A stretch of 64,000 bases of DNA from Ferruginibacter sp. (lineage in GTDB: Bacteria; Bacteroidota; Bacteroidia; Chitinophagales; Chitinophagaceae), in assembly GCA_013141435.1 (NCBI GenBank), contig JABFQZ010000018.1:1-64000 (forward strand), in the 5' to 3' direction. The notes below the pieces were generated by a model, which was not told the DNA's origin, searched no databases, and saw only the letters and a list, made by a program, of their open reading frames with translations. Made by a program: the position numbers and the translations under genes. Within the stretch, counting starts at the first letter, position 1, and each line of letters opens with the position of its first letter. Shown here piece after piece: positions 2,620-60,893 of this stretch.

Positions 2620-5463
2620 TTATTGTTTAACGAATTTTTGTACCATTTTGTTTTCGTTATTTATCATTATTACAAAATAAATACCTTTAGCTAAGTTAGA
2701 AATATCAATTACTTTACTATTATTAGATGTAAATTGATAAACCGTTTTGCCATTTTCGTTTACAATTTTAAATGCAGAATTATTTGCAAAAGTATTAATA
2801 TTTATTTTTATACTATTTTGTGCAAATGCTGGTGTAATGGTAAAATAGTTGTTATTTTTTGTTTCGCAATTATTTAAAGAAATGATTTTAGAAAAATAGA
2901 AGCTACCATCTTTATCGGTTTGTTTAATTCTATAAAAAGATAATCCGTTTAGTTTTTCATTATCATTAAATGTATAAGTTTTATTTGCCGAAAAAACTTT
3001 TCCAATTTTTTTCCAAATATTACCGTCTTCACTTTTTTCAACTTCAAAATAATCGTTGTTTATTTCAGAAGTTGTTTTCCAATTTAATTGTGCATATTGG
3101 TTATTGCAAATGGCAGTAAAACTTTCAAATTTTACGGGCAATACAGTACTCAAACTACCTATTTTCATACCATTGCCAAAGCTTGTAACCCACATTTTAT
3201 CGGTATCAAAAGGGTTAAAAAATACCTTTAAAGGGTTTTTAAATTCATAGCCCAAAACTCTTGTAAAACTTGGCGCAGCTGTACCTCTAGCGTTTATGTT
3301 ACTACTCATCCAAAGTCCTAACCCTTCGGTTGTAAAGTACAATTCGTTGGGGTTTGTAGGGTTAAATGTGCAAGATTCTACTCTATCAATTATAGGGTCG
3401 GTAAGTCTTATCCAAGTAGAGCCTCTATTTATGGTTTTATATAAACCTCCTGTACCTGCTGGTGCACCACCCCAGCCACTTGCTACACAGGCATACCAAG
3501 TGTTTTGAGTAGCATCGTTGGGGTCTATTACTACTTCTTTTGTCCAATAAATCATATTCACAGGGTCCGATACATCTGCCCAAGTATTGGTAGTAGGGTT
3601 ATATGTAAATACACCAGAGCTTGAAGCAAAAACTGGCACGCCAGATGTATTTCTACGTCCAGAAAAAGCAGCAACTACAGTACCATCGTTAAGTACCTCT
3701 AACGACGCAGGGTGTTTTTGAGTACGAGGAGGGTCAGCCAAAAGTGTCCATGTAGAAGTGGCAAGATTACTTAAATCATCACATCTATAAACGCCACCAA
3801 CACCAGCGCCTGCTGCATAATGTATTACACTTGCATAAGCTCTATTGGTATTGTTTGGGTCTAAAGCTATCCAATATACTGGGTGTCCAAAAAGTTTTAA
3901 TAAATTCCAAGTTTGCCCATTATTGGTAGAGTAAATTAATTTACCGTTTGGGTCTGCATTATCTAAAGGTATATCTTTTAGCCTAGTACTTTGGTACATA
4001 TCATGAACGTTAGACGTAGCCGCAATTAATGTGCCACTTGAAGTTTTTACAGTACGATAAGCTGTATTTGCTAAATGTCCAGTGTAATTAAAAGACCATT
4101 TGTTGCCAGCATCTGTACTTCTCATTCCTCTCACATCGGAATAAGAAGCCCATAAATTTGTAGCATTAGCCCAAGTTACTTGCCAGCAGGTTGTATTTTC
4201 TAAACCAATGCTTTTGTAGCTTTGAAACTGTGGGGTAGCTGCATTCATTGAGTTTTGTTCTGCTACATCTACATATCCTTGGCTCCATGAAGAGCCACCA
4301 TTGGTTGTTTTATGCGGAAACCCAAAATCGGTGATTATTACTTTATTGGCATCTGTAGCACAAACATCGAACCCTAAAGCACATTCACCATAACTCCATT
4401 GTCTATCTCCCAAATGACCAGCCCAACCAGTAAATACATTTTGGTTATTATTTACAATTAAAGAATTTGTCCATGTGCTACCTGCATTAACAGATTTGAG
4501 AACCATAGGCTCTCCCCAAGAGCCTCCAGATGCTTTTATACTACTGCCAGCCACATATACAGTATTAATATCATTTTCGGCACAATCTATATACATTGGA
4601 TATTCACCATTTGTAATATCAATCCCAGTTGCAATTGATGTCCAATTATTAGTACCACCATGTATATAATCTACGGTATAAACTCCTTTTGTAAAACCCC
4701 AATAATCTAATCCTTTTACACCTACATAGGTATTACCAGCTGCACCAGTAATACAATAAAACCTAGTGGTAGAGCCAACTTTTGCAATAGCAAAGCTCCA
4801 AATACGTTCGTTTATTGGCAAACCTCCAATAGGTGTTATAGCCCAAGTATAACCACCATTTGTAGATACCAATACACCATCGTTGGTAGCAATGTACACC
4901 CTATTGCTAGTATTATCGAAGAAAAAGCCACTCAAAATACAACCAGATCCACCATCTAAAGCAGTATGTTCCAAATCTACAGTTGCACCACCATCATGAG
5001 TAACAAATACTTGGCCATAATTAGAAAATACAACCAAATCGGGGTCGCTTGTACTTGAATATATTGATACAAAATTTTCGCCAGAGGCAGAAACAGGCAA
5101 TACAAATGGTACCCATGTAAGTCCATTATCGATACTTTTTACTGGTACATTATTACCAGCTACGGGGTCTAAAATTGTTAAAGAGTATAGTAACCCTGGA
5201 GTGCTTGTAAAACAAACTTTTGCATCTGCATTGCCATTAATATTAGCCGAGTTTAATTGTGTATATGAATTTCCAAAATTGGTGGTGTGAAATTGCTCTC
5301 CCATATCGCATGCCACAAAATACTCATTGGTGTTAAAAGGATTTATAGTAGGATAAAATAATGCACCACCACCACCAATACCTCTGGCTTGCCAAGATAT
5401 TGGTTGAGAAAAAGAAACAATTGAAAGTGTAGCGAAAATGAAATTAAGTACCAGTTTTTTCAT
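2620..5463 (-). CDS. T9SS-exported beta-propeller (BNR/sortilin-like) protein
   Basis: A 947-residue secreted protein. It has a signal peptide (residues 1-19, ending SFSQ) and then about 750 residues carrying repeated Asp/Asn-Gly-Gly-x-Thr-Trp Asp-box motifs (HDGGAT, TNGGYTW, NAGSTW, TNGGSSW, NNGQTW, NRGSTW). These are the signature of BNR, sortilin or GH74-like beta-propellers. A fibronectin-like stretch starting VLPVKFESF and a T9SS type A sorting domain ending KGIYFVIMINNENKMVQKFVKQ follow. T9SS cargo is released or anchored at the outer surface. A glycoside hydrolase (GH74-like) or binding role is possible, but no catalytic pair was assigned. The gene is 41 bases upstream of the next large secreted gene on the same strand, so the two may be co-transcribed. 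Confidence 0.88.
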   Translation of the reverse strand: MKKLVLNFIFATLSIVSFSQPISWQARGIGGGGALFYPTINPFNTNEYFVACDMGEQFHTTNFGNSYTQLNSANINGNADAKVCFTSTPGLLYSLTILDPVAGNNVPVKSIDNGLTWVPFVLPVSASGENFVSIYSSTSDPDLVVFSNYGQVFVTHDGGATVDLEHTALDGGSGCILSGFFFDNTSNRVYIATNDGVLVSTNGGYTWAITPIGGLPINERIWSFAIAKVGSTTRFYCITGAAGNTYVGVKGLDYWGFTKGVYTVDYIHGGTNNWTSIATGIDITNGEYPMYIDCAENDINTVYVAGSSIKASGGSWGEPMVLKSVNAGSTWTNSLIVNNNQNVFTGWAGHLGDRQWSYGECALGFDVCATDANKVIITDFGFPHKTTNGGSSWSQGYVDVAEQNSMNAATPQFQSYKSIGLENTTCWQVTWANATNLWASYSDVRGMRSTDAGNKWSFNYTGHLANTAYRTVKTSSGTLIAATSNVHDMYQSTRLKDIPLDNADPNGKLIYSTNNGQTWNLLKLFGHPVYWIALDPNNTNRAYASVIHYAAGAGVGGVYRCDDLSNLATSTWTLLADPPRTQKHPASLEVLNDGTVVAAFSGRRNTSGVPVFASSSGVFTYNPTTNTWADVSDPVNMIYWTKEVVIDPNDATQNTWYACVASGWGGAPAGTGGLYKTINRGSTWIRLTDPIIDRVESCTFNPTNPNELYFTTEGLGLWMSSNINARGTAAPSFTRVLGYEFKNPLKVFFNPFDTDKMWVTSFGNGMKIGSLSTVLPVKFESFTAICNNQYAQLNWKTTSEINNDYFEVEKSEDGNIWKKIGKVFSANKTYTFNDNEKLNGLSFYRIKQTDKDGSFYFSKIISLNNCETKNNNYFTITPAFAQNSIKININTFANNSAFKIVNENGKTVYQFTSNNSKVIDISNLAKGIYFVIMINNENKMVQKFVKQ

Positions 5464-5858: not shown

Positions 5859-6965
5859 TTAACCAATGCCATCTTTTACATCTACAGCATCTCTTAAAGC
5901 AGTACCCAACAAATTAAAAGCCAATACCAACAGCATAATTGCAAAGCCAGGTATTAGTGCTTGCATGGCATTATTAGTAATTATTAAATTGTAGTTTTCT
6001 TTTATCATTAATCCCCAGCTTGGTTGTGGCGGTTGCACACCAATACCTAAAAAGCTAAGTCCTGCCTCTACAATAATGGCAGTAGCAAAATTGCCTGCTG
6101 CTATTACCAATACAGGGCCAATAATGTTGGGCAAAATATGTTTAAAAATTATTCTGAAATCTTTAAAACCCAATGCCTTTGCAGCTTGTACATACTCTAA
6201 TTCTTTTACAGCCATTACTTGCCCACGTACAAGGCGTGCTACACTTACCCATAGAGTAAGCCCTACTGCAATAAATATTTGCCAAAAGCCTTTGCCCAAA
6301 GCAAGGGTTATTGCAAATACTAATAAAAGTGTAGGAATACTCCATGTTACATTTATAAACCACATAATAAATGTATCAGTCTTGCCTTTATAATAACCAG
6401 CAAAAGCACCCAACAAAACACCTATACTCAACGAAATTATAACAGCAACCAAACCCACCATCATACTTACCCTTGTGCCAATAATAAGCCTGCTCAATAA
6501 ATCTCTACCGAAGGCATCTGTACCTAACCAATATTTTTTTGTAATAATTTGAGTCAATATTTTTTCTGGCTGCTTATTCGTTATTTCAACTATACTGTAA
6601 TTTTGCACTACCGAAGTGTCATCATCTACATATTTATTTACACTAATGTTTTGGCCATTTATAGTAAAACTTTTTATTGGCAAAAATTTATGAGTAGTTG
6701 ATCTCCCAAAAAATAAATTATAAAAAAAAGAAGATTGTGTTTTATTGTTTATAGGTATTTTTAAAAACAGTTGAGTGTAACCTAATGGTTTAGATTGTAT
6801 TTCTATTGTTTGCAAATCAGCATCTGTACTATCATCTGGCGCAATAATGTATCCAAAAAAACTTACCAGTACTGCAAGCACAATAATGCACAAGCCTACT
6901 ATTCCCGATTTTTTTCGGCAAAGTTTTTTCCATATAGTTTTTCCCGTATGTTTTGTATTATTCAT
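5859..6965 (-). CDS. ABC transporter permease, DppC/OppC type
   Basis: A 368-residue inner-membrane permease of the peptide/nickel ABC importer class. The N-terminal membrane helix (residues ~20-42) is followed by a periplasmic insert (~45-145) that is much longer than in E. coli DppC. Next come the conserved LGTDAFGRDLLSRL (147-160), five further helices, and the cytoplasmic EAA loop (EYVQAAKALGF, ~257-267) that contacts the ATPase. The C-terminus LAFNLLGTALRDAVDV is typical of DppC. No partner permease, ATPase or binding protein is adjacent, so the gene is an orphan here, as often seen in Bacteroidota. The substrate cannot be named. Confidence 0.88.
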   Translation of the reverse strand: MNNTKHTGKTIWKKLCRKKSGIVGLCIIVLAVLVSFFGYIIAPDDSTDADLQTIEIQSKPLGYTQLFLKIPINNKTQSSFFYNLFFGRSTTHKFLPIKSFTINGQNISVNKYVDDDTSVVQNYSIVEITNKQPEKILTQIITKKYWLGTDAFGRDLLSRLIIGTRVSMMVGLVAVIISLSIGVLLGAFAGYYKGKTDTFIMWFINVTWSIPTLLLVFAITLALGKGFWQIFIAVGLTLWVSVARLVRGQVMAVKELEYVQAAKALGFKDFRIIFKHILPNIIGPVLVIAAGNFATAIIVEAGLSFLGIGVQPPQPSWGLMIKENYNLIITNNAMQALIPGFAIMLLVLAFNLLGTALRDAVDVKDGIG

Positions 6966-13369: not shown

Positions 13370-13461
13370 CCCAACGCACCCATGCCCACCCAACACACCA
13401 AAAACATTAATCCATTATACATTAATCAAAATATTTTATCTTGCTTTAAAACTACTTGCTA

Positions 13462-15420
13462 ATGAGACAACTTATTTTAATCGCATTGATTTCTCCGTTA
13501 TATCTTTTTGCTCAACCTCAAAAAATTGACAGCTTAAAATTAATTTTAAAATCAAATCCCAAAAATGTAGAAACCTTGTCTGCTATTGGATTAGAATATT
13601 CAAAAAACAATAAAGATTCGTTTAAATTTTATGCTAATTATGCAAATCAATTGGCGAAAACAGATTGCGAAAAATCATATTCACTAAACGCCATTGGAGG
13701 CTATTTAATTACAAATAGCAAAATAGACTCTGCAATTTTTTCCTATAAAGAAGCTATAGAAAATGCTAAGAAATGTGGAAATAAGCAACAACAAGCACAA
13801 ATACTAATAAACTTATCGTTTGTGTATATTTTAAAAGGCGAAAACGATACTACAATTGAATTAACCACAAATGCTATTAAAATATTAGAAACCATAAAAT
13901 TAAATGAAGCCATACAATTGCTAATTTGTAAAGCATTAAAATATAAAGGTGACGCCTATAGCAGATTGGGGCAGTACGATAAAGCAACCGAAAATTTATT
14001 TGAGGCAAAAAAGCAGAACAACAATAGCAATTTAGATATGGAAGCTTCCATTAATGGGAGCTTAGGTAGTTTATACACAAATAAGTTGGAGCTAGACAAA
14101 GCCATTACATATACAAAGCTGTCAGCCGAAAAGTTTGAAAAATTAAATAATATTGTAAATGCAGAGATGCAGTTTTCTAACCTTGCAAACGAGTATATTG
14201 AATATAAAAAATATGATAGTGCAGCTTACTATTTAAAAAAATGCGAACCACTATTGCAGCATATTAATAACCCAACTAAACAAGCATATGTTAATAAAAG
14301 TTGGGCAAGATTATTTTTAGCTAAAAAAAATTTAGGGCAAGCACTTGTATATTATGATAAAGCTATTTCTAATTACACCGAAGCGGGCGAAGATGTTTTA
14401 CTTGCCGATTGTTTTTATGGGAAAGCTGAAACCTATGCCAAACAAAATAACTATACATTGGCCAAAATATTCTTTTTGAAAACAGAAACACTATACATAG
14501 AAAATGAAATGCCCAATGAACTATCTGGCTTATACTACGATTTAGCAAAGCTCGAAAGTAAAAAAGGCGCATATAATAATGCGTATAATTATTTAAGTAA
14601 GTCGTACGATATTGAAGATTCATTAAGAAGCGAAAAAATAATTGAAGCCGAAAAAAATGCAGAGCAGAAATATGAAGCATCTTTAAAAGAAGCAACTATT
14701 ACTAAGCAAAACGTTGAAATAAAAACACAAAAACAAAAAAACTTTTGGCTTATTACAGGTTCAGTTATTGCTGCATTAGTAGCTTTTATTTTAGGTTTGT
14801 TGTACAAAAGAATTAGAGGGCAAAAGAAACAAATTGAAGTTCAAAAACAAGAAATTCTACACAATAATAGAAATAATATTCAACAGTTAATTAGCATTTT
14901 TAATAGGCAATCGGAAACTGAAGGGCTAAAAGAAAATTCTTTAGCTAATCAAGAAAGGCTTTATACATTGAACCTCCTTAACAAATTGTTATATGAAAGC
15001 GGAGAAAATAATAAAGCCGATATAAAAGAATATCTTACGCAACTTTCGTCTGCTAAAGAAATAGGAAGTGGCAAATTAGTAAAAATAAAATTAGACACTC
15101 CCAACATAAAATTAAAAAGCAATCTATTAAAAGATATTGGGCTAATTGTAAATGAATTAACTACAAACGCAATTAAATATGCTTTTAAAAATAATGAAAA
15201 TCCTTTAATTGCAATAAAAGTCAATTATGACGATGCCCAAAATATTAATTTGCACATAGCTGATAATGGAAATGGTTTACCAGAGGGCTTTAATTTACTT
15301 CAAGAAAGAAAATCATTTGGGTTGGAATTTGTAAACGATTTGGTTACACAACATCATGGCACAATTAAAGCATACAATAACAACGGGACTTGTTTTGACA
15401 TTAGCCTTAAAGTCAGATAG
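13462..15420 (+). CDS. TPR-containing sensor histidine kinase (TCS1 kinase)
   Basis: A 652-residue inner-membrane sensor. A signal peptide (MRQLILIALISPLYLFAQ) leads into about 380 periplasmic residues of tetratricopeptide repeats, then one membrane helix (WLITGSVIAALVAFILGLLY, ~426-445), a coiled linker, a dimerisation/phosphoacceptor segment EILHNNRNNIQQLISIFNRQ, and a HATPase domain with N-box LIVNELTTNAIKYAF and G1 box DNGNGLP. The segment resembles HisKA_2 (EIHHRVKNNLQ); the histidine of LHNN aligns with its phosphoacceptor while the following RV is replaced by NN. The ATG at 13462 is chosen over TTG at 13456. It is followed at 67 bases by a LytTR response regulator, its likely partner. 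Confidence 0.88.
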   Translation: MRQLILIALISPLYLFAQPQKIDSLKLILKSNPKNVETLSAIGLEYSKNNKDSFKFYANYANQLAKTDCEKSYSLNAIGGYLITNSKIDSAIFSYKEAIENAKKCGNKQQQAQILINLSFVYILKGENDTTIELTTNAIKILETIKLNEAIQLLICKALKYKGDAYSRLGQYDKATENLFEAKKQNNNSNLDMEASINGSLGSLYTNKLELDKAITYTKLSAEKFEKLNNIVNAEMQFSNLANEYIEYKKYDSAAYYLKKCEPLLQHINNPTKQAYVNKSWARLFLAKKNLGQALVYYDKAISNYTEAGEDVLLADCFYGKAETYAKQNNYTLAKIFFLKTETLYIENEMPNELSGLYYDLAKLESKKGAYNNAYNYLSKSYDIEDSLRSEKIIEAEKNAEQKYEASLKEATITKQNVEIKTQKQKNFWLITGSVIAALVAFILGLLYKRIRGQKKQIEVQKQEILHNNRNNIQQLISIFNRQSETEGLKENSLANQERLYTLNLLNKLLYESGENNKADIKEYLTQLSSAKEIGSGKLVKIKLDTPNIKLKSNLLKDIGLIVNELTTNAIKYAFKNNENPLIAIKVNYDDAQNINLHIADNGNGLPEGFNLLQERKSFGLEFVNDLVTQHHGTIKAYNNNGTCFDISLKVR

Positions 15421-15446
15421 GTACTTATTAACTACAAATGGGTACA
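15413..15446 (+). promoter_or_regulatory. Putative LytTR operator pair 1 of TCS1
   Basis: TCAGATAGGTACT (15413-15425) and ACAAATGGGTACA (15434-15446) are direct repeats with starts 21 bp apart. They overlap the kinase stop and lie 41 bases upstream of the regulator ATG. They match the repeats at 16244-16277 and 19742-19775. A -7-like TAATTTAC starts 29 bases after the pair. Inferred autoregulatory site. Confidence 0.5.
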
Positions 15447-15487
15447 TAATTATGTTGATTTAAAATTCATGTTTTAATTTACGCATT

Positions 15488-16240
15488 ATGCTTAAAATAC
15501 TCATTGTAGATGATAATTTAATTTTTGCGAAAGACTTAGCCAAAGGTGTTCAAAAATATAATTGTGAGGTTGTAGGCATAGCTGCATCTGCAGAAAAAGC
15601 TATTGAATTGTTTGAAAGTAAAGAACCAAACCTTGTTTTTATTGACCTTGAATTAGAAGGAGAAAAAGATGGTATTTATGTTGCCGAACACATCAATAAA
15701 ACATGCCGAGTACCTTTTATTTTTCTTACAGATAATTTTGGCTCATCTAATAAATATTTTAAAAAAGCTACCAATACACTTCCTGCAAACTATTTACCTA
15801 AAGGCACTTTTTTACCAAATCAGCTTTGGCATTTTGTAGAAGCAGCCATGAGCAATTACTCAAAAGCAGGTGGACTTTTAATTAATGAAGATGAACCAAG
15901 TGCATTTATTCGCAATCAATTTTTTGTAAAAAGCAAAGGCGTTTGGGAAAAACTTACCGCAGAAGATATTACGCATATAACTGTAAATAAACCTTACTGC
16001 GAAATACATACTACCAAAAGTCTTAAAAAATATTTAGTTCGTAAACCACTTGACTTTACAGTTTTACAATTCAATTCAGTAAAATTAATTCGTATTCACC
16101 AGAGCCATGCTGTAAATATTAATTTTATTTGCAAGTACGATTATACAAAAAGTAAAATTATCCTAACCACAAAAAATGAATTGGAAGTTGGTAGAACTTA
16201 CAAAAAATCACTCCCAAGCCAAGTGTTGTTTTTAGATTAA
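15488..16240 (+). CDS. LytTR-family response regulator (TCS1 regulator)
   Basis: A 250-residue cytoplasmic response regulator. The receiver domain (1-120) has the acidic pair D8-D9, phospho-acceptor D53 (FIDLEL) and the switch Thr in FIFLTDN. The LytTR DNA-binding domain occupies ~145-250 (FFVKSKGVWEKLTAEDITHI, IRIHQSHAVNINFI, LEVGRTYKK). LytTR dimers bind two direct repeats on one DNA face. Three such repeat pairs, 21 bp in period, occur next to this gene, before the gene at 16416 and before the metalloprotease at 19831, suggesting a local regulon of secreted proteins. Its probable partner is the upstream histidine kinase. Confidence 0.92.
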   Translation: MLKILIVDDNLIFAKDLAKGVQKYNCEVVGIAASAEKAIELFESKEPNLVFIDLELEGEKDGIYVAEHINKTCRVPFIFLTDNFGSSNKYFKKATNTLPANYLPKGTFLPNQLWHFVEAAMSNYSKAGGLLINEDEPSAFIRNQFFVKSKGVWEKLTAEDITHITVNKPYCEIHTTKSLKKYLVRKPLDFTVLQFNSVKLIRIHQSHAVNINFICKYDYTKSKIILTTKNELEVGRTYKKSLPSQVLFLD

Positions 16241-16243
16241 GGT

Positions 16244-16277
16244 ACAAATAGATACACTATTTTACCAAATAGTAACA
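16244..16277 (+). promoter_or_regulatory. Putative LytTR operator pair 2 of TCS1
   Basis: ACAAATAGATACA (16244-16256) and CCAAATAGTAACA (16265-16277) are direct repeats 21 bp apart start to start, immediately after the regulator gene and upstream of the secreted-protein gene at 16416. A -7-like TTATTTTG begins 29 bases downstream (16306-16313). The left repeat is identical to the left repeat at 19742. Confidence 0.6.
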
Positions 16278-16415
16278 TACTTAAATTTTAATAAATAGTT
16301 GTTAATTATTTTGTGAAGAATAATTAGCACAACTAATTAAAGAAAGGAGGCACTCTTTTAGAGGTGTAAAATATATATATGCAAAACGGCATATAGAAAT
16401 TTAAAAATATTTGTA

Positions 16416-17318
16416 ATGAAAATGAAAATGAAAATTAAAAAACTTAAAATCTTGAGAAAAATTGCTAATACAATTTTACTGTTATTTATTTTTATTTTGC
16501 ACAGTTTTGCACAAAAAAATATTAAATTTATAGAAAAAACTAGAGTAGAAGCTGCGTTATACACTACTCCATTAAAAGAGAAAGAAATTCAAAAAGCTTT
16601 GCAAAATTACATTAGTGCTGGTGTATTATCTTGCAAATACTTAGGGCAAGTAGCAAAGGATTCAATAAAAGCTCAGCTTAAAAGAAACGAATTGCATGGC
16701 ATGGTAAGGGTAATGCCATACAAAACACCAGGATTAATGGGTATTCCATTTCCGTCAATAATATTAAATTATAAAATACAGATTACTATTGTAGAAAATG
16801 AAGTAAAAGTAGCATTTAGCGATTTTAGTATGCAAAATTTTAATTTGTTTGAAATATATAACGATTCAAAAGATTTTAAAATTAAAATAAAATTACGAGA
16901 GTTAGATGAAAAAAATTATGATAGTGTATACAACAGAAACGATTTAAGTTCAACAGAATATTACGAAGGAATTCAAAAACTTATTAATCAAAATAGAGGA
17001 GGTTATTTGATGCCAGAACAAGAAAGCTTGGCTAGAAGAAATTCATCTACTGGTATTCAAAAAAGCTTTGATAAAATTGGTCAAAAGAGCGAAGCAAATT
17101 TTCAGAGTAATTTTCTCACGGTTAACGAAAAATGGTGGGATGCAAATGCTTATGATGTAATAAAAATGGAGTTTAAAAAAATAGCAGAATTGCTAAAAGC
17201 AAAAATAACTGCAGTAGCTACTAATGGTGAAGTAAAGTACAAAGTTGAAAATGAAAAATTACTTCCGATTGATGAAAAGGAAAAGGCAAAATGGTTAAAG
17301 AAAAGTATCAATTTTTAA
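16416..17318 (+). CDS. Secreted protein of unknown function, possibly DUF4468-like
   Basis: A 300-residue protein with a basic N-terminus, a hydrophobic signal segment (residues ~16-31) and a predicted cleavage after HSFAQ. Several in-frame ATGs at 16416, 16422 and 16428 are possible starts. The mature part is mixed alpha/beta, polar and lysine-rich, with a beta-strand region IILNYKIQITIVENEVKVAF that resembles the TBP-like fold of DUF4468 proteins; this is a tentative likeness. Its stop overlaps the ATG of the next gene (TAATG), so the two are translationally coupled. It is preceded by a putative TCS1 operator. The function is unknown. Confidence 0.6.
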   Translation: MKMKMKIKKLKILRKIANTILLLFIFILHSFAQKNIKFIEKTRVEAALYTTPLKEKEIQKALQNYISAGVLSCKYLGQVAKDSIKAQLKRNELHGMVRVMPYKTPGLMGIPFPSIILNYKIQITIVENEVKVAFSDFSMQNFNLFEIYNDSKDFKIKIKLRELDEKNYDSVYNRNDLSSTEYYEGIQKLINQNRGGYLMPEQESLARRNSSTGIQKSFDKIGQKSEANFQSNFLTVNEKWWDANAYDVIKMEFKKIAELLKAKITAVATNGEVKYKVENEKLLPIDEKEKAKWLKKSINF

Positions 17319-19492
17319 TGAAAAAGATAATATTTTTAATTTTTTGTATTTTGTTTTGTATGAGAATAATTTTTGCTCAAAATAAATTATTATCATTTGA
17401 AGAAGATAAAAAAACTGTTGCCTCTTATAAAAAAGTAAAAGGCATAAATTTAGATGAGTATTTAAGTAACGAAAAACTGTTATCATTTAAAGAAAAAGTA
17501 ATTAAGGAACCTTCGTTAAGCAATTCAGTGGCTACATTTACCTATGAGCCACCATTTGAGCCAAGTCAAAAAATAGAAGCTCCAATTTTAATAGACGCTA
17601 TAGATAAATACTTTAATAACAATTTATCAATAGAATTCATTGATATTCTTTTGGCAAATGGTGCAGATGCTTTTGCAACAGGCTTTAAAATACCACCACT
17701 ATATCTTATAAATTCTTATGCAATAAACAATGTAGAAAAATCAATTTCATTGTACGAATTGTTTTTAAAAAATAAGACAAATTTCGAGCAAATTTCAAAA
17801 AATAGGATTAGCATATTTTCAGATTATATTACTAAAACTGAAGAAATATTGCGAAGTAAAAAAATTGTTTCTTTCTTTTTAAATGCAGGGTGTTATGTAA
17901 ATACTCCCAACGAATACGGCACTCCATTAATAATAAGTGCTATTGAAAATAATGATATTGCAATAGTAGAGTTATTGTTGCAAAATAGTGCTGATGTAAA
18001 TATGAGAGCTTCTAATAATTTATTACCTATTGTTGCAGCTATTGATAATAACAACGAAGTAATATTTAATTTGCTTGTAGGAAAAAATGCTATACTGAAC
18101 AAAGCTATTTTGGAAGAAACTAATTTTGCCATTAAAAACTTAAATTGTACAGTTTCATTTTCGCAAAAATTAGCAAATCTATATTTAATAGAAGTAAGTA
18201 ATATTTCAGATGCAAAAAGGTTCACAATTTTATTTACTAATTATTCTAATAAAATTTTTGTGAAGGTTTGTAATTTGGTAAATAATTATTCCGATTTAAA
18301 ATATTTTGTACAGAACTGTACTGGATTCAAATGCACATCTAAAAATTATATTATAGAAAATGAGTTAGATAAGTTATATATTGATGAGTTGGTATGGGTG
18401 GCTAATACATTTAAAAGTGAAGACATAGGTAAAAAAGCTGCCATAAGATATGTTGGTTTTTCTAATACAGTAGAAGAGTTTATAAAAAATATAAATAGTG
18501 GAGTAATAGCTGGTGCGCCTCATATTTCGTATGCAAATTTTGATAATGAGCAATCTGTTTATAATACTGCCGAAGAAATCAAACATTTATCCAAATATTT
18601 TGCACAAGAAAAACTAAACAAATTTGCAGATCAAATTATTGGAAAATATTTGCAAACAAGAATAATATTTACCGATAAGCCAGAGTACTGGGTAGCTGAT
18701 GGAGATAGAGGTTGGCTCGATGATTTTGCTGAGCAAAACAGACAATATTTTTCTGGTGGAAATAAGTTTAATATTTTTTCGGTAGGATTAGTAAAAAATA
18801 CTACAAGTAAAAACCTAAAACTAAAATTGAATATTGAATTTAATCTTTTAGTAACAACTAACATTTCTATTTTAACAAGTACAGATTCAAAAAAAATTGT
18901 TGAACCATTTTATGTAGAAATTGCTGCAGGACAAACCGTTCCTTTTATAAGTTTATTTAGAAATGTATCGGATGGTTTTAATGTTGGTAATAGTGTTCTA
19001 ATGAGTATGGGTAGCAATGTAAATATTGATACAAAAGAGCCTGTTACATTAAGTGTAGAAAATGTATCTACTGAATTTCCTTTAGATAAATTACAATGGC
19101 AAAAAAAATTGATAGAGCTTTTTTTGAGTGGTAAATCTAATATAGAAACCAGTAAAAGCAGTAAGGATAAAATGGATATTTTTTCTAAAAAATTGGCTGA
19201 AAAATTAACAGGTACAAAAATAGGAGAAAACACAGGTGTGTATGTTCATTTTAATAATCCAAACAAAGCATGTGTTATCAATTTATTAGATGCTAACAAT
19301 AATGCTATTGAAAGCAAATCTTTTTCTAATGAGGGAGAATGCACATATTATTACTCTGCACAATCTAACAAACAATACAAAATTTATTTGAGTTATTGTA
19401 ATAAGCCAGTAATTTTAACTCCCAAAGGCAAATTGATAAGTGTAATGATAAGTAAAGATTGTAAGAGCAGAATAGATTTGGAAGATAGGTAA
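17318..19492 (+). CDS. Secreted ankyrin-repeat protein
   Basis: The start at 17318 (MKKIIFLIFCILFCMRIIFAQ) is chosen because it gives a clean signal peptide and a one-base overlap with the upstream stop. A frame from 17291 would add nine residues inside the previous gene. The protein is 724 residues. Ankyrin-like repeats lie in the first third: AIDKYFNNNLSIEFIDILLA and TPLIISAIENNDIAIVELLL, followed by LLPIVAAIDNNNEVIFNLLV. The C-terminal half is beta-rich, without recognised domains, and ends in a small cysteine-containing region. Periplasmic or surface location is inferred. It is co-transcribed with the gene at 16416 and probably controlled by TCS1. Confidence 0.7.
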   Translation: MKKIIFLIFCILFCMRIIFAQNKLLSFEEDKKTVASYKKVKGINLDEYLSNEKLLSFKEKVIKEPSLSNSVATFTYEPPFEPSQKIEAPILIDAIDKYFNNNLSIEFIDILLANGADAFATGFKIPPLYLINSYAINNVEKSISLYELFLKNKTNFEQISKNRISIFSDYITKTEEILRSKKIVSFFLNAGCYVNTPNEYGTPLIISAIENNDIAIVELLLQNSADVNMRASNNLLPIVAAIDNNNEVIFNLLVGKNAILNKAILEETNFAIKNLNCTVSFSQKLANLYLIEVSNISDAKRFTILFTNYSNKIFVKVCNLVNNYSDLKYFVQNCTGFKCTSKNYIIENELDKLYIDELVWVANTFKSEDIGKKAAIRYVGFSNTVEEFIKNINSGVIAGAPHISYANFDNEQSVYNTAEEIKHLSKYFAQEKLNKFADQIIGKYLQTRIIFTDKPEYWVADGDRGWLDDFAEQNRQYFSGGNKFNIFSVGLVKNTTSKNLKLKLNIEFNLLVTTNISILTSTDSKKIVEPFYVEIAAGQTVPFISLFRNVSDGFNVGNSVLMSMGSNVNIDTKEPVTLSVENVSTEFPLDKLQWQKKLIELFLSGKSNIETSKSSKDKMDIFSKKLAEKLTGTKIGENTGVYVHFNNPNKACVINLLDANNNAIESKSFSNEGECTYYYSAQSNKQYKIYLSYCNKPVILTPKGKLISVMISKDCKSRIDLEDR

Positions 19493-19575
19493 CAAATGTG
19501 TTTAGTTAATTACAAAGTAAAATATCAAATTTTGATGTTTTAATGTTTTGAGAATATAAAATTGAATTTTGCTAA

Positions 19576-19701
19576 TTTAAAATTTATAAAAATCAGTTAC
19601 CAGGTAAAATAACAGTTTCATATCAAGAAACGTATGACAGCCCAATAAATATCGTAGAATTGGTAATCAAAAAAGGAGGCTATTATACCATGAATATTTG
19701 A
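19576..19701 (+). pseudogene. Possible coding remnant without a start
   Basis: Within the 338-base gap, one frame between stops reads as plausible protein with no start codon: LPGKITVSYQETYDSPINIV, then ELVIKKGGYYTMNI and TGA. The amino-acid composition is protein-like rather than random for such AT-rich DNA. No family was recognised. It could be the decayed end of a duplicated secreted protein. Confidence 0.25.
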
Positions 19702-19741
19702 TAGTAAAACATTTATAGTACTATATTTTTTTATAAAAATT

Positions 19742-19775
19742 ACAAATAGATACATTATATAACTGTATAGATACA
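19742..19775 (+). promoter_or_regulatory. Putative LytTR operator pair 3 of TCS1
   Basis: ACAAATAGATACA (19742-19754) and CTGTATAGATACA (19763-19775) share ATAGATACA exactly, with starts 21 bp apart. The pair ends 55 bases upstream of the metalloprotease ATG. A -7-like ATTACTTG begins 28 bases downstream. The left half is identical over 13 bases to that at 16244, 3.5 kb away. Confidence 0.62.
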
Positions 19776-19830: not shown

Positions 19831-22800
19831 ATGAATAAATATTTACTCTCTTTCTTTTTTGTAATTTCCTTTTCAATCTGTGCCTACAGTCAAAATGAAG
19901 TAACAACTCTTCAATTTGAAAAAACAACTTTTACCGATGTGAAACTTACTACTAAGTTTCACAAGTTCGATTTATGGAAGTTAATATCAAATACCAGCGT
20001 TGCTAATAAAAGCAATGAATTAAAATTAAAATTTGGAGATAGTATTATCTCATTTACCGTAGAACATAATAATAATTTAATCAAATCCGATTTTGTGATA
20101 ACAGCAAATGGTAAACACTTTTCAAAAGATGCTTCGCTAGTACATTTAAACACAAAAAAGGGTGCAGAAAATGAATGCCGAATTTCATTAGCAAAAGATT
20201 TTATTTTAGGAAGTTTTACTATTGGCAAAGAAAAATATATTATTGAACAAGCAAGAAATTTCATAAAAGATACAGAAAAAGATTTTGTAATTATTTATAA
20301 TGAAAAAGATGAAATAAAGGTGGATGTAAAATGTGGAACAGAAACAGTAAGTAATGCTAAAAATGTAAATAATTTATCGAGTAATTCTAATCAAGTATTG
20401 AATGGTATTTGTAGAGTAATTGATTATGCCATTGCTGTCGATTATTCAAGTTTTCAGAATCACGGAAGTAGTATTAACCAAACTTCAAATTATATTCTTT
20501 CTATAATGAATATGGTAGAGGGTAATTATGTGGGTGTTTTTACAGACGACTTATTTTATAAAATTTCAGAAATTGTAATTTTTACAAGCCCACAAGTTAA
20601 TCCATGGTTGTTCACACATGACATAAATACAAACCTAAGTTCGTTTACGGGATGGGCTACTACAGGTTTTACCAAACCGTTTGACGATGCTTCATACTGG
20701 TTCAATTCTGGATCCTGGTCGGGAACTGTTGGGTTAGCTTGGCTAAATACAACTTGTCAAGCCAATGGCTATAATACTAATGCAATCCGGGAATTTGGGG
20801 TTGGCGTAAATACAATGCGTTGTTTAATTTCACATGAAATTGGACATAATTTTGGGTGTGCACACACAACTGGATTTATTATGAACCCCTCAGTTAATAA
20901 TGCTACTACATGGGCTCCAGAATCGATTACAACTGTTAATAATAGAATAGCAGGGACAGGCGGCACTTGTATTACTCCTTGTAGTTATATTCCTTGTGAA
21001 AAATTACAGGCTGAAAATGTAGCCGTTGCTGATAATGGTTCGCAACTTATTGTAAGTTGGAATGCAAATACAAACCCAGTAAAAGTAGAATATCGTCAAT
21101 CGACTTCAGGACCTTTTTCGTTAGTTGGCACATTCAACTCTCCAATCAACTCAACTTCAATAACACATAATTCAAACTGCGGGGTTACAGAGTATTTTCA
21201 AGTTAGGGTAACTCCTATTTGCCCTAATACAAATACAGGAGTTCCTTTAATTATTGTTAAACAGTCTATAGGTGGTATTCCCCCAACTCCAACAATTTCA
21301 ATAACAGCCAATAGTACTATTTTTTGCGGTGGTACAAATGCTACTTTTAATGCAGCAATAACAAGTGGCGGTACTTCGCCAATTTATCAATGGAAGGTTA
21401 ATGGTATAAACGTTAGTACTAATGTGAGTTCTTATTCTACAACTACTTTGAACCATAATGACATTGTTACTTGTGTTTTAACTTCATCCATTAGTTGTGT
21501 TACATCTAATAATATTGTAAGTAATGCTATAACAATAGCCCTTAATCCTCCAATTTCTAATTTTAATTTTACAAAAGTAGGTTTAGCCGTCAATTTTTCA
21601 AATTCAAGCACTTGTGCTGCAAGTTATAGTTGGAATTTCGGAGATGGCTCAACTTCTACTTCTGCTAATCCAACACATACATACGCTACTAACGGTATTT
21701 ACAATGTTTGTTTAACTGTTACCAATGTAAATGGTTCTAATCAAAAGTGCTTACAAATTCCTGTATTTAATGCTTGGGTTGATAACATGAATGATGCAAC
21801 GAACGGAATAGGGCAAGCCATTACTTTTCAAAACAGTTTATGTGACAGAGCCTCAGAATTTAAAATAAACAGTACTTCAAACCCACAGTTAAATCCGAGT
21901 ATTGAATATCCTTTTGATTTATGGATACCCAAAAAGGGAACAATAGAATTTCTTTGTAGAATTACAGGAGGATACGGTAGTTTTGGAATTAGTCCAAATA
22001 GTGGTACTTTATTTCAAATAGGTAGTGGTTTTTTAGGAGGACAAGTAATTAGAAAACTTGAAGTAACATCAGGTGGAACTATTAATTTTTTAGGAACAGT
22101 TGGTGGTAATTATTCAAATCTACAAGCATTGGGTACACCATTTAGATTTAACGAATGGCATGTAGTTTCTATTTCGTATGGTACACAAGGTTATAAAATT
22201 GCTGTAAATGGTATAATAAGAGCTAGTAATACAGTGCAAATCACAGGCCTAGATAGCGCCAGAGTACAATTAGGTGAAATTTGGTATCCTTCAAATACAA
22301 GATGGGAAGGCATTACAGGACTTGTAGATAAAGTGAGATTTTCCTACGCAGAATCTGATTTTGTACTTTCATTGCCGACTTTACCACCCACTGCAACTAT
22401 TTTGACATCAACAAATAATATATGCTTTGGTACACCCGTAACTTTTACAGCTACTACAAATGCACCAACTGCCAATTATCAATGGAAAAAAAATGGAGTA
22501 AATGTAGGTGGCAATAGCCCAACCTATGTTGACAATGGTTTGCTAAATGGTAATTTAATTAACTGTGTTGTAACCGCAACAAGTGGCTGTTTTGGTACTC
22601 CAACAAATACAAGTAATACAATAAATATGGTTGTAAATACTCCTGTTGCACCAGTATCTACAATTACAGCTTCTGCAAATAATATTTGCCCAGGTACTTC
22701 TGTAACATTTACCGCTACCACAAATGCGTCTATAGCCAATTATCAATGGAAAAAGAACGGTGTTAATGTAGGAACGAACACTAATACTTTTACAGATAAC

Positions 22801-24177
22801 ACACTATTAAATAACGACCAAATAACTTGTTTTGTTTCAGCAACATCAGGTTGTTTTAGTACAACAGCAACAGCAGCAAATACCATCACAATAAGTGTTG
22901 TAGTTCCAGTAACACCGTCAATTAGTATAACAGCAAGCAGAACAAATCCATGTGTTGGCGAAAATGTAATCTTTACAGCTACTTCAACAAACAGTGGTGC
23001 AACACCAACTTATCAATGGAAAAGAAATGGCATAAATGTTGGCAATGGCATTACTTACTCCACAACAACATTGGTGAATAGTGATATTATTTCTTGTGTA
23101 CTTACAAGCTCATTAATTTGTGTAACCTCAACAACTGCTAACAGCAATAGTATTAATATAACTGTAAGACCAATAATTACTCCAGCAGCAAGTATAGCAA
23201 CTATAGCAACTACAATTTGCCAAAATTCTAATATAACTTTTACTGCTTTAACCAATATAATAAACCCTATTTATCAATGGAAAGTTAATAATATAAATAC
23301 AGCTACAAATAATGATACATTTACAAGTAGCAGCCTAAACAATAATGATGTGGTAAGCTGTACAATTACTGCACCAGCATTAGATTGCTATTCAACATAT
23401 ATAACAAACAGTAATAATATTTCTATTACTGTTAGACCATTACTAACACCCACAATTACGATTATAAGTAATGATGTTGATAATATTTTATGCGAAGGAC
23501 AATTAATTACTTTTATAGCTACATCAACAAATGGTGGCTCAGCTCCAGTTTATCAATGGAAGAAAAATGGTTTAAATGTTGGCTCAAATTCTGCAACTTT
23601 TAACTTAGCAACTCCTTCAAATAATGATGAAGTATCTTGTATAATTACAAGTAATGAAAATTGCCTTACATCAAATAATATTGAAAGTAACAAAGTGAAA
23701 ATTGAAGTTGTGCAGGTAAACCCAACGATAACAAAAAATGGCTTTACGATTACAGTAACCCCACAAAGAATTGGAGCAGCATGGCAATGGTATAAAGATG
23801 GACAAATAATTGCAGGTGCAACGAATGCCACATTTGATGCTTCAATATTTGGCAATTACACAGTAAAAGAAACATTTAAAACTTGCACTAAATATAGTAC
23901 TGCTGTAGCAATACTTCCTTTTACAAACAATAATGAAGATGATATAAAAATATACCCTAACCCAGCAAATGAACTTTTATTTGCCCAGAGTAGAACGACA
24001 GATATAACCATAAAATCTGTAACTATTTTTGATGAGACGGGTAAACGTATATTAAGCCAGTCACTTCCGAATACAAATCTAGTAAAAGTAAATCTTTCCA
24101 CTCTTTCAAATTCAGTTTACATAGCAGTTTTTGAAACAAATGGTAAAACAGTTAGAACAAAATTTATTAAACAATAG
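19831..24177 (+). CDS. T9SS-exported metzincin metalloprotease with PKD, LamG-like and Ig-like repeats
   Basis: A 1448-residue secreted protease. A signal peptide (residues 1-21) and a prodomain-like region (~25-180) precede a reprolysin-like metzincin catalytic domain with zinc motif HEIGHNFGCAH (H335, E336, H339, H345) and a Met-turn at FIM351. A fibronectin-like module, an Ig-like domain (~490-575), a PKD domain (YSWNFGDGSTSTSANPTHTY, ~600-640) and a LamG/concanavalin-like domain (~655-860) follow. Five Ig-like repeats of 84-93 residues come next, each with a YQWKxNGxNVG-type core. A final WQWYKDG domain and a T9SS type A sorting domain (IYPNPANE..., ~1370-1448) close the protein. It probably degrades extracellular protein. 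It is preceded by TCS1 operator pair 3. Confidence 0.92.
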   Translation: MNKYLLSFFFVISFSICAYSQNEVTTLQFEKTTFTDVKLTTKFHKFDLWKLISNTSVANKSNELKLKFGDSIISFTVEHNNNLIKSDFVITANGKHFSKDASLVHLNTKKGAENECRISLAKDFILGSFTIGKEKYIIEQARNFIKDTEKDFVIIYNEKDEIKVDVKCGTETVSNAKNVNNLSSNSNQVLNGICRVIDYAIAVDYSSFQNHGSSINQTSNYILSIMNMVEGNYVGVFTDDLFYKISEIVIFTSPQVNPWLFTHDINTNLSSFTGWATTGFTKPFDDASYWFNSGSWSGTVGLAWLNTTCQANGYNTNAIREFGVGVNTMRCLISHEIGHNFGCAHTTGFIMNPSVNNATTWAPESITTVNNRIAGTGGTCITPCSYIPCEKLQAENVAVADNGSQLIVSWNANTNPVKVEYRQSTSGPFSLVGTFNSPINSTSITHNSNCGVTEYFQVRVTPICPNTNTGVPLIIVKQSIGGIPPTPTISITANSTIFCGGTNATFNAAITSGGTSPIYQWKVNGINVSTNVSSYSTTTLNHNDIVTCVLTSSISCVTSNNIVSNAITIALNPPISNFNFTKVGLAVNFSNSSTCAASYSWNFGDGSTSTSANPTHTYATNGIYNVCLTVTNVNGSNQKCLQIPVFNAWVDNMNDATNGIGQAITFQNSLCDRASEFKINSTSNPQLNPSIEYPFDLWIPKKGTIEFLCRITGGYGSFGISPNSGTLFQIGSGFLGGQVIRKLEVTSGGTINFLGTVGGNYSNLQALGTPFRFNEWHVVSISYGTQGYKIAVNGIIRASNTVQITGLDSARVQLGEIWYPSNTRWEGITGLVDKVRFSYAESDFVLSLPTLPPTATILTSTNNICFGTPVTFTATTNAPTANYQWKKNGVNVGGNSPTYVDNGLLNGNLINCVVTATSGCFGTPTNTSNTINMVVNTPVAPVSTITASANNICPGTSVTFTATTNASIANYQWKKNGVNVGTNTNTFTDNTLLNNDQITCFVSATSGCFSTTATAANTITISVVVPVTPSISITASRTNPCVGENVIFTATSTNSGATPTYQWKRNGINVGNGITYSTTTLVNSDIISCVLTSSLICVTSTTANSNSINITVRPIITPAASIATIATTICQNSNITFTALTNIINPIYQWKVNNINTATNNDTFTSSSLNNNDVVSCTITAPALDCYSTYITNSNNISITVRPLLTPTITIISNDVDNILCEGQLITFIATSTNGGSAPVYQWKKNGLNVGSNSATFNLATPSNNDEVSCIITSNENCLTSNNIESNKVKIEVVQVNPTITKNGFTITVTPQRIGAAWQWYKDGQIIAGATNATFDASIFGNYTVKETFKTCTKYSTAVAILPFTNNNEDDIKIYPNPANELLFAQSRTTDITIKSVTIFDETGKRILSQSLPNTNLVKVNLSTLSNSVYIAVFETNGKTVRTKFIKQ
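22380..23730 (+). repeat. Tandem Ig-like domain repeats inside the metalloprotease gene
   Basis: Five coding repeats of about 255-280 bases are each marked by TATCAATGGAAA near 22477, 22741, 23010, 23272 and 23550 (approximate). Conservation is at the protein level (YQWK core, NNSD/NNDxV-SC-IT pattern) with considerable DNA divergence, so they are old duplications rather than fresh copies. Confidence 0.7.
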
Positions 24178-37223: not shown

Positions 37224-38048
37224 ATGAATAAACAACTTTACTTAAATATAAAATTTAACGATAAACTTTTGTGGCTAATAAGCTACTTTATAATTTCATT
37301 ATCATTTATATTTTTTGCAAACGATAATTCGTTACCTGTTTTAGTAAAAATGCCATTGTTTTATGCAGATATATTATTTGCAGTAAGTGTAACTTTTACA
37401 ACTGGGTTTTATTTAAAAAAATTAAATGAAAAATTAAATAAAACAATTTCATGGCAGCATTCTTTTAAAGGTAGATTATTAAAGCAATTTTTATACGGTG
37501 TGTTAATTCCTCTATTTGTTGCAATGGCTTTAGAAGTTTTTTATTTGTATTGTATAAATATTTCAATTGCAAAAAGTGCTATTCTTAATTTAGAGCTGCC
37601 TTTGGCTTTTATATTTTTGGTGCTTATTAACTTAGTATATTTAGTTACATATCTTCTTAAAAACAAACAAAAGGAAACAGTAACCGAAAAAGTATTTGTA
37701 AAATCTATCGAAAAATTAGAATTTATAAAAGTGCAAAAAGGTTATGTAGAAGAAAAAATAGAAATTAATAAATGTGCCTATATAAAAAGTGCAAACAAAT
37801 TATTATGGTTGCAAACTTTTGATGGCGAAAAATATCGTTTGCAAGGCACTTTAGAGGAATGGGAACTTAAATTATCGACCTCTAATTTTTATAGAATTAA
37901 TAGACAATATCTTGCAGCCTCTAAAGCAATTAAATCTGTAGAACAAACGGCAACTAGAAAACTGAAAGTAAATTTTATATTACCTAGCGAAGAAGTGTAC
38001 ATTTCGAAGCCTAATGTTGCCAGCTTTAGACAATGGTGGAAACAATAA
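37224..38048 (+). CDS. Membrane-anchored LytTR transcriptional regulator
   Basis: A 274-residue protein with four predicted membrane helices in the first half (LLWLISYFIISLSFIFFA, LFYADILFAVSVTFTTGFYL, LLKQFLYGVLIPLFVAMALE, LAFIFLVLINLVYLVTYLL) and a C-terminal LytTR DNA-binding domain (about 165-274: FIKVQKGYVEEKIEINKCAY, FYRINRQYLAASKAIKSV, VYISKPNVASFRQWW). There is no receiver domain or phosphorylatable Asp, so sensing is probably direct through the membrane part. It lies upstream of a barrel protein and a serine-hydrolase lipoprotein on the same strand and may control them. Confidence 0.85.
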   Translation: MNKQLYLNIKFNDKLLWLISYFIISLSFIFFANDNSLPVLVKMPLFYADILFAVSVTFTTGFYLKKLNEKLNKTISWQHSFKGRLLKQFLYGVLIPLFVAMALEVFYLYCINISIAKSAILNLELPLAFIFLVLINLVYLVTYLLKNKQKETVTEKVFVKSIEKLEFIKVQKGYVEEKIEINKCAYIKSANKLLWLQTFDGEKYRLQGTLEEWELKLSTSNFYRINRQYLAASKAIKSVEQTATRKLKVNFILPSEEVYISKPNVASFRQWWKQ

Positions 38049-45206: not shown

Positions 45207-45297
45207 GTACTTTTAGTTGGGCTTATAAATGTATCTAAATTTGAAGATTAAAATTTACTTTAAATTATAAAATTACTTATTAGGCACCTATATTTTC

Positions 45298-45367
45298 CTG
45301 TTTAGCATCAAAATTTGCTTATTCAGCAAATTTATAATTGCAAAAAAATAGAAATTAGTTATTTTTA
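45298..45367 (+). promoter_or_regulatory. Putative LytTR operator pair and promoter of the cytochrome/YceI operon
   Basis: Direct repeats CTGTTTAGCA (45298-45307) and TTATTCAGCA (45319-45328) start 21 bp apart. They are followed by TTG (45338-45340), a 19-base spacer and TATTTTTA (45360-45367), 16 bases before the ATG at 45384. The same arrangement, with the same 31-base distance between the second repeat and the -7 box, occurs at 52283-52352. An inverted repeat AAATTTGCT/AGCAAATTT overlaps the right half-site. Inferred target of the LytTR regulator at 51512. Confidence 0.65.
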
Positions 45368-51511: not shown

Positions 51512-52273
51512 ATGAAAGTATTAATTATTGAAGACGAAGAGCCAGCAGCAAAAAGATTACAAAAAATGATTGTAGAAATTGCACCTAATGCTGAAATATT
51601 AGATACTATTGTAAGCGTAACTTCGGCAATAAGGTGGTTTAACGAAAACAAAATGCCTGATTTAATATTGTCGGACATTCAATTATCGGATGGTATTAGT
51701 TTCGATATTTTTAAATCTATTGAAGTTACATGCCCAGTAATTTTTACAACTGCTTTTGATCAGTATGCTATAGATGCATTTAAAATAAATACCATTGATT
51801 ATTTATTAAAACCAATAAAAAAAGAAGCCTTACAAGAGGCTTTAGTAAAGCATAATAAATTATCTACAAAAAATACTGCCATTGATTTTAAACAATTTTT
51901 GGAAACATATAATAGCCCAACTATAACTTATAAAAAAAGATTTGTAGTGCGCTATGGAGAGCATATTAAAACCATAAATATTGATGAGGTAGCCTTTTTT
52001 TTTACAGAAGACAAAGTGAATTTTTTAACTACAACAGAAGGACGTAGATATACAATTGAGTACAATTTAGATTCGTTAGAAACTATCATAGATCCTAAAA
52101 CATATTTTAGAATAAACCGCCAATATATAATTGGCATACATGCTATAACAGAAATGTTTGCATACACAAAAAGTAGGGTATTAATAAAATTAAACCCACC
52201 AGCAAAGCATGAAACCATAGTTAGTACCGAGCGTTCAGCCGAATTTAAACTTTGGCTTGGCGATGAAAAGTAG
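51512..52273 (+). CDS. LytTR-family response regulator (TCS2 regulator)
   Basis: A 253-residue regulator. The receiver has E7-D8-E9, phospho-acceptor D55 (LILSDIQLSDG), the Thr of IFTTAFDQYAIDAF and Lys of YLLKPIKKEA, all standard. The LytTR domain (~140-250) contains RFVVRYGEHIKTINIDEVAF, FRINRQYIIGIHAI and TERSAEFKLWLG. It is the partner of the upstream kinase, with start and stop abutting. Direct repeats with 21-bp period lie before the operon and immediately after this gene, suggesting auto-regulation of its operon and control of the lipoprotein at 52387. Confidence 0.94.
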   Translation: MKVLIIEDEEPAAKRLQKMIVEIAPNAEILDTIVSVTSAIRWFNENKMPDLILSDIQLSDGISFDIFKSIEVTCPVIFTTAFDQYAIDAFKINTIDYLLKPIKKEALQEALVKHNKLSTKNTAIDFKQFLETYNSPTITYKKRFVVRYGEHIKTINIDEVAFFFTEDKVNFLTTTEGRRYTIEYNLDSLETIIDPKTYFRINRQYIIGIHAITEMFAYTKSRVLIKLNPPAKHETIVSTERSAEFKLWLGDEK

Positions 52274-52282
52274 CCAATAAAC

Positions 52283-52352
52283 TTATTCAGTACCAAAAAA
52301 TACCTGCTCAGTAATATAGAGTTTTATACAAATCATATTTGTTGCATTTTTA
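52283..52352 (+). promoter_or_regulatory. Putative LytTR operator pair and promoter of the small lipoprotein gene
   Basis: Direct repeats TTATTCAGTA (52283-52292) and CTGCTCAGTA (52304-52313) start 21 bp apart with an 11-base spacer. Thirty-one bases later CATTTTTA (52345-52352) is in the -7 position. Spacing and sequence match the promoter at 45298-45367, with the two half-site types in reversed order. No TTG at -33. Confidence 0.62.
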
Positions 52353-59611: not shown

Positions 59612-60021
<410 letters not shown>

Positions 60022-60740: not shown

Positions 60741-60893
60741 GAGATATTAGTATCAAGATATGAGTATCAAGATATGAGTATTAAGATAACTAAACCCAAA
60801 CCTTTTTTATATTATAGAAATATAAGTAAAGAAAAAAAGTTCAAACTTGGTTATCTCAATACTCAATACTAATATCTCAATACTCAATACTTG
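60741..60893 (+). repeat. Inverted repeat between atpF and atpH
   Basis: The left arm (60741-60790) is three tandem copies of a unit like GATATTAGTATCAAGATATGAG, and the right arm (60849-60893) is the complement-type CTCAATACTAATATCTCAAT. The arms are imperfectly complementary and could pair in mRNA. Same word family as at 59612 and 60083. Confidence 0.7.

Follow-up and report, generated by a model that had tools for sequence, protein, structure and literature searches.

Candidate LytTR-type operators at a two-component locus of Ferruginibacter sp.: three repeat pairs with a 21-bp period

Within a 64,000-nucleotide stretch of Ferruginibacter sp. (contig JABFQZ010000018.1, positions 1 to 64,000; the whole stretch is hereafter called the window), the two-component locus TCS1 carries three pairs of direct repeats, pairs A, B, and C, which are most likely the operators of the locus's own receiver (REC)-LytTR response regulator. 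They are candidate operators of an already known LytTR kind, in an arrangement known from other bacteria. A LytTR-type operator code is supported by the restriction of the pairs to this locus, by their agreement with the published format, and by the recurrence of the 21-bp period at LytTR genes. All three pairs lie on the plus strand. Pair A (15413..15446), a 13+8+13 direct repeat with a period of 21, consists of TCAGATAGGTACT at 15413 and ACAAATGGGTACA at 15434; it overlaps the stop codon of the sensor kinase gene, and the ATG of the regulator gene follows 41 bp downstream. Pair B (16244..16277; ACAAATAGATACA at 16244 and CCAAATAGTAACA at 16265) stands 138 bp from the ATG of a gene for a 300-aa protein, and pair C (19742..19775; ACAAATAGATACA at 19742 and CTGTATAGATACA at 19763) stands 55 bp from the ATG of a metalloprotease gene. 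A sequence-only reading of this DNA had placed repeats exactly 21 bp apart at 15413/15434, 16244/16265, and 19742/19763, with left halves at 16244 and 19742 sharing all 13 bases, and the letters bear out both statements. It had also described a readable regulon that included the kinase; the pairs do stand 5' of the regulator, the putative exported-protein genes and the protease, but the kinase gene has no site, as a matrix scan of the window at spacing 21 found no fourth pair 5' of it.

Taken individually, the pairs are unremarkable: the two halves agree at 9–10 of 13 positions in each, the local DNA is 68% A+T, and a ranking by within-pair similarity missed all three. Because no pair stands out alone, the evidence lies in the motif common to all of them. 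The pattern CARATRGRTAC-N10-CARATRGRTACA, designed from pairs A–C themselves and allowing up to three mismatches, matches three times in the window and never in 100 dinucleotide shuffles. A non-circular measure is given by leave-one-out scoring, in which a matrix is built from two pairs and the third is held out. Each held-out pair ranked first among 127,934 positions (both strands, spacing 21), with scores of 17.0, 24.6, and 20.7 bits for A, B, and C and runners-up at 15.5–15.8 bits; at 47 other spacings, 12, 0, and 0 positions, respectively, scored as high. Under the full matrix the pairs reach 28.1–30.4 bits, and the next-best spacing-21 position in the window, at 31009, reaches 15.8. The period of 21 and a conserved core of about 10–12 nt agree with the operator format described for LytTR regulators, namely two repeats of 9–11 nt with 11–13 nt between them and no common consensus (PMC4847170; here and below, statements from the literature follow excerpts of the papers cited).

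The same pattern finds four places in the whole genome (3,056,910 bases in 43 contigs), vs. none for its reversed control. When pairs A–C were made into a sequence-only model and the best 150 of its 1079 first-look candidates scored, they were its sole matches at E < 0.001 (1.4e-4, 1.6e-4, and 3.5e-4). The next match (E 0.147), at 191913 of contig C21, is the fourth pattern place; it sits within a 366-aa coding sequence and was taken as a chance occurrence. Relaxing the pattern raised the count to 18, and that of the reversed control to 5. These data exclude the random scatter that would have told against the sequence-only reading, and support a repeat code that is private to the TCS1 locus, as far as the genome searches reach.

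The 21-bp period was then considered at LytTR genes in general. The collection of 126 loci comprised 100 survey loci, 13 from the own genome (which has 13 LytTR matches), and 13 others obtained earlier. Survey loci were picked by hand, roughly from the top down with some rows skipped, among the listed LytTR matches (E ≤ 1e-12) from 56 genomes with a completeness of at least 95%. Some of the 26 non-survey loci had been seen by eye before the statistic was designed, and survey-only figures are therefore given separately below. A first ranking over all intergenic DNA placed spacing 21 on top in 17 of the 126 loci and spacing 14 in 10; since spacing 14 was also raised, a tandem filter, a split into adjacent and far DNA, and a low-complexity filter were added. 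Two loci (L075 and L078) in which a home-made hidden Markov model found no LytTR gene were excluded, leaving 124. With a repeat threshold above 11.5 bits and 46 other spacings (range 14–60) for comparison, the 57.0 kb of intergenic DNA touching a LytTR gene or operon held 22 spacing-21 segments vs. a mean of 1.98 and a maximum of 6 elsewhere (Poisson P 4e-16), with one segment each at spacings 20 and 22. The far set (66.0 kb) held 7 vs. 2.17, with a maximum of 9 (Poisson P 0.007). Among the 22 segments are some A/T-rich runs, one near-duplicate couple (L128/L134) and two that look related (L122/L136); after the low-complexity filter, 16 were left vs. a mean of 1.76 and a maximum of 5. In the own-genome subset (11 of the 13 loci) there were 5 segments, TCS1 among them, vs. 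a mean of 0.09 and a maximum of 1. Taken over all loci, or over those of the own genome, adjacency has a clear effect at 21 bp; once the survey is filtered, the effect is weaker.

A second locus of the window, TCS2, has repeats with the same period and other letters. Its candidate operators on the plus strand, outside TCS1 and used as comparators, are three half-sites 21 bp apart (45276, 45297, and 45318; 45276..45328), with the gene at 45384 starting 55 bp downstream, and a pair (52282/52303; 52282..52313) between the regulator gene 51512–52273 and the open reading frame at 52387; the TCS2 pair scores below the survey threshold. The half-sites read CNTATTCAGYA, a pattern designed from the TCS2 sites, which occurs at four places in the genome (reversed control, none): the two TCS2 sites, one at a paralogous locus on contig C22, and one within a coding sequence on C34. 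The paralogous regulator (locus L070, C22:50000–60500) is 32% identical to that of TCS2. When its 10.5-kb stretch was scored with a matrix from four TCS2 half-sites, the top spacing-21 places reached 20.1 and 19.9 bits and the next 14.2; these two places (4886–4917 and 9567–9598 of L070) stand after the regulator and before the first cluster gene, which is the layout of TCS2 in the window. That the TCS2 code would differ from the TCS1 code had been anticipated, and it does, with CNTATTCAGYA half-sites kept at the paralogous locus. At another locus, L072 (C28), a perfect 12-base pair lies between the regulator and the next gene. What carries over to other LytTR genes of the genus is the exact 21-bp frame next to them; the letters in it vary by regulator.

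The presumed binder of pairs A–C is encoded at 15488..16240 (+). Both a receiver domain (Pfam Response_reg, 5.6e-12, 46.2 bits against a cut-off of 30.2) and a LytTR domain (2.8e-10, 40.7 bits against 22.6) are found in this one protein, which makes it a LytTR-family response regulator. Residues D9, D53, and K105 are unchanged across four aligned regulators; we take these to be the receiver acidic residue, the phospho-acceptor aspartate and the lysine, with phosphorylation as a prediction. The LIRIHQS stretch of its LytTR domain fits the FhRhHRS-type DNA-contact motif, with L in place of F and Q in place of the second R, where AgrA itself has N (PMC4227749). Upstream, the sensor histidine kinase (open reading frame 13456..15420, +) has TPR_12 (1.4e-10), HATPase_c (2.8e-10), and HisKA_2 (6.2e-5) matches in Pfam and, judged by eye, a signal-peptide-like N terminus and one transmembrane stretch. 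Since pair A, which overlaps the stop codon of the kinase gene, comes just ahead of the regulator gene, the latter probably has its own promoter.

It is quite likely that TCS1 forms a self-contained, autoregulated module in which the regulator, bound at pairs A–C, would activate three transcripts. Because the regulator has the parts of published LytTR systems, it would most likely activate its own gene and the exported-protein genes next to it. Going by the domains, the TPR sensor kinase would phosphorylate the REC-LytTR regulator, and a regulator dimer, with one LytTR domain per half-site, would then bind two copies of about CAAATAGATACA, which should lie on the same face of the DNA at a distance of two helix turns. 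From a position 41–138 bp upstream of the start codons, the bound regulator would activate transcription of its own gene, of the overlapping 16416/17318 genes, and of the T9SS (type IX secretion system) metalloprotease gene at 19831.

AgrA serves quorum sensing, and AgrA/ComE-type half-sites, a consensus from other phyla, have a GTT core. None of the six TCS1 half-sites contains GTT, and its complement AAC is present in one (16265); for want of this core, the TCS1 half-sites are not of the AgrA/ComE type, and the AgrA-type consensus is not seen in them. At S. aureus P2/P3, a dimer of AgrA sits on two direct repeats upstream of its own operon's promoters, using an FhRhHRS-type motif to which LIRIHQS of the TCS1 regulator corresponds (PMC4227749). 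E. coli YpdB, likewise a LytTR response regulator, has a direct repeat as its site at PyhjX (GGCATTTCAT; PMC4847170). This site differs in letters from those of TCS1, whose regulator would target its own gene and the neighbouring ones. The target of YpdB, on the other hand, is presumably a distant transporter gene. Regulators of the LytTR regulatory systems (LRS) autoregulate through repeats just 5' of the promoter, and in these and the LRS-like operons of Bacteroides, as in TCS1, repeats with system-specific letters stand just upstream of the LytTR operon (PMC6193735). An example from B. thetaiotaomicron is TCCGGTATTCA-11 bp-ACCGGAAATCA, with a period of 22 and a readable TATCTTTG (PMC6193735), whereas TCS1 has a period of 21 and no readable −7 element. 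LRS regulators also lack a receiver domain and have a membrane inhibitor as partner, whereas the TCS1 regulator has a receiver domain and a histidine kinase gene upstream, which places it outside the LRS. Among the papers listed in a literature survey by titles and the opening lines of abstracts, none had an experimentally mapped site of a LytTR response regulator in Bacteroidota; the nearest precedent there is the predicted Bacteroides LRS-like repeat (PMC6193735).

Other explanations of the pairs must be weighed against activation by the adjoining regulator. That the pairs are coincidences of AT-rich DNA, or copies of a dispersed mobile repeat, is very improbable: the modest identity within each pair and the high A+T content would suit a coincidence, but not the empty shuffles and three first ranks in leave-one-out scoring, and a mobile repeat would be expected to have further strong copies, of which the genome search, within its 150 best candidates, returned none. 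The pairs might instead serve another DNA-binding protein, of the LytTR or a different family, with the adjoining regulator as a bystander. The 13 LytTR matches of the genome do offer alternatives, and it is by inference that binding is assigned to the regulator at 15488; yet the sole strong matches in 3.06 Mb, among those candidates, stand at this locus, before this regulator and its neighbours, and the L070, L071, L072, and TCS2 loci carry different letters, so that this explanation is quite unlikely. Unlikely as well is a repressor switch, in which the regulator would own the sites and repress some or all of its targets. Pair A is merely 41 bp from the ATG, promoter elements could not be located, and AgrA is reported to repress one gene, bsaA, from a site that lies 3' of the promoter (PMC4227749); against this, the known repeats of AgrA at P2/P3 (PMC4227749) and of HdrR (PMC6193735) lie upstream of promoters of activated operons, and the 55–138 bp that follow pairs B and C leave room for a promoter.

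Several observations weigh against activation by the TCS1 regulator from pairs A–C. We assumed TAnnTTTG as the −7 consensus and scored it at offsets 0–59 after each pair. The −7-like box that the sequence-only reading had placed 28–29 bases after every pair did not hold up, as no common offset emerged: at offset 28 there are two mismatches at A and one at B, pair C has no TAnnTTTG with up to two mismatches at offsets 28–29, and such matches occupy 8.1% of the plus-strand positions of the window. The form TATCTTTG is the one that appears in PMC6193735. No convincing −7 element thus stands at a shared distance after pairs A–C, and the gap of 138 bp from pair B to its ATG is a further point against. 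A scan for sigma-70-type promoters was uninformative, with 55 found vs. 64.0 expected from shuffles. Survey figures point the same way: the 100 survey loci by themselves drop to 11 segments vs. 1.52, and with low-complexity segments removed to 6 vs. 1.33 with a maximum of 5 (P 0.0025), while in the far DNA of these loci the count is 5 vs. 0.78.

The loci of relatives, which had been proposed as a check, gave a divided answer. A regulator match at E ≤ 1e-20 is present in 7 of 93 genomes of the genus, the own genome included. The nearest (39% identity to the TCS1 regulator) is that of genome G006, where the kinase and regulator genes are followed by a gene for an ankyrin protein like that at 17318. 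The best spacing-21 pair there under the TCS1 matrix, ACGAATAGCTACA-N8-TAGAATAGCAACT (17.3 bits), lies 50 bp 5' of this gene, and searching G006 for the letters of this pair returned the pair itself and one place with three mismatches (reversed control, 1). To be set with the points against, chance could produce 17.3 bits, for within the same 16-kb stretch a score of 18.4 is reached at spacing 15, and inside a coding sequence in an unrelated part of the own genome (L035:14685) spacing 21 gives 17.9; the pair is not among the four matches that the model lists in G006 at E ≤ 10 (best 150 of 468 candidates); G077 and G073 have no model match at E ≤ 10 (best 150 of 548 and all 137 of 137 candidates, respectively); and position weight matrix scans stay at or below 15.2 bits in G077 (two loci), G073, G069, G092, and G064 (L050–L055). 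Scans of L037–L042 for TCS1-type pairs stay at or below 13.2 bits. Place and target gene favour the G006 pair, and its score leaves the question unsettled. A similar site at this one orthologous locus is thus suggested, and if these orthologous regulators use repeats at all, the letters drift quickly. In G077, at 6792–6824 (−) of L050, a perfect 12-base pair, TGCAGAATTGCA twice at spacing 21, precedes a gene with a LytTR domain alone; it is the only match in G077 with up to three mismatches to its own letters, and either of two LytTR proteins may be its binder. A related-loci search of genome contigs gave one distant Psychrobacillus match, which was not used.

A broader proposal is put forward tentatively, at somewhat less than even confidence: in this lineage of Bacteroidota, a phylum to which the T9SS tail and other proteins point, LytTR two-component systems may be modular, each with its own letters in a fixed 21-bp frame and with mostly adjacent exported-protein genes as targets, the module duplicating and diverging as a unit. 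Its last part is suggested because TCS2 and its C22 paralog both keep two sites. If true, regulons of otherwise unreadable regulators could be found through exact 21-bp repeats, and with the frame fixed and the letters specific to each regulator, targets could be predicted, and specificity swaps tested, directly. For TCS1, the reading would assign one particular sensor to a T9SS protease and to orphan proteins that are exported.

The putative targets beyond the regulator gene are three. The gene for the 300-aa protein (open reading frame 16416..17318, +) encodes a product with an N terminus that is signal-peptide-like by eye; no Pfam or NCBIfam family was assigned to it, and it had no match at E ≤ 1e-4 among 395 other genomes drawn from the order, nor any in G006, G077, or G073. 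It is followed by an ankyrin-repeat protein gene (17318..19492, +; frame listed from 17291; Pfam Ank_2, 1.8e-7), whose product also has a signal-peptide-like start by eye, so that both proteins are putatively exported. The ATG at 17318 overlaps the stop codon of the 16416 gene (TAATG), suggesting translational coupling of the two. The third gene (19831..24177, +) encodes a reprolysin-like metalloprotease of 1448 aa (Reprolysin_5, 5.7e-12; PKD_4, 4e-20; Por_Secre_tail, 3.8e-9), in which PKD and Ig-like domains precede a C-terminal sorting domain of type A (Por_Secre_tail 37.1 bits, cut-off 27; TIGR04183 6.6e-11, 42 bits, cut-off 23), which makes it a T9SS cargo. A gene remnant may lie at 19575–19700, between the ankyrin gene and pair C, where a short open frame lacks a good start and ends in KITVSYQETYDSPINIVELVIKKGGYYTMNI.

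Other LytTR loci and intergenic repeats of the genome offer further observations. L071 (C22:179007) has three ACCAAA-type half-sites (5302, 5323, and 5344; 5302–5355) directly 3' of a LytTR regulator gene, ahead of a gene whose product has a signal-peptide-like start. The window's open reading frame 37224–38048 has a LytTR match and, by eye, hydrophobic N-terminal stretches and no receiver-like start; its product is possibly a membrane-bound LytTR regulator. Short intergenic repeats of the TATTGAGTATTGAGATA type occur in opposite orientations at 59607–59645, following 58514–59611, and at 60852–60889, preceding 60914–61474, and L072 has similar letters.

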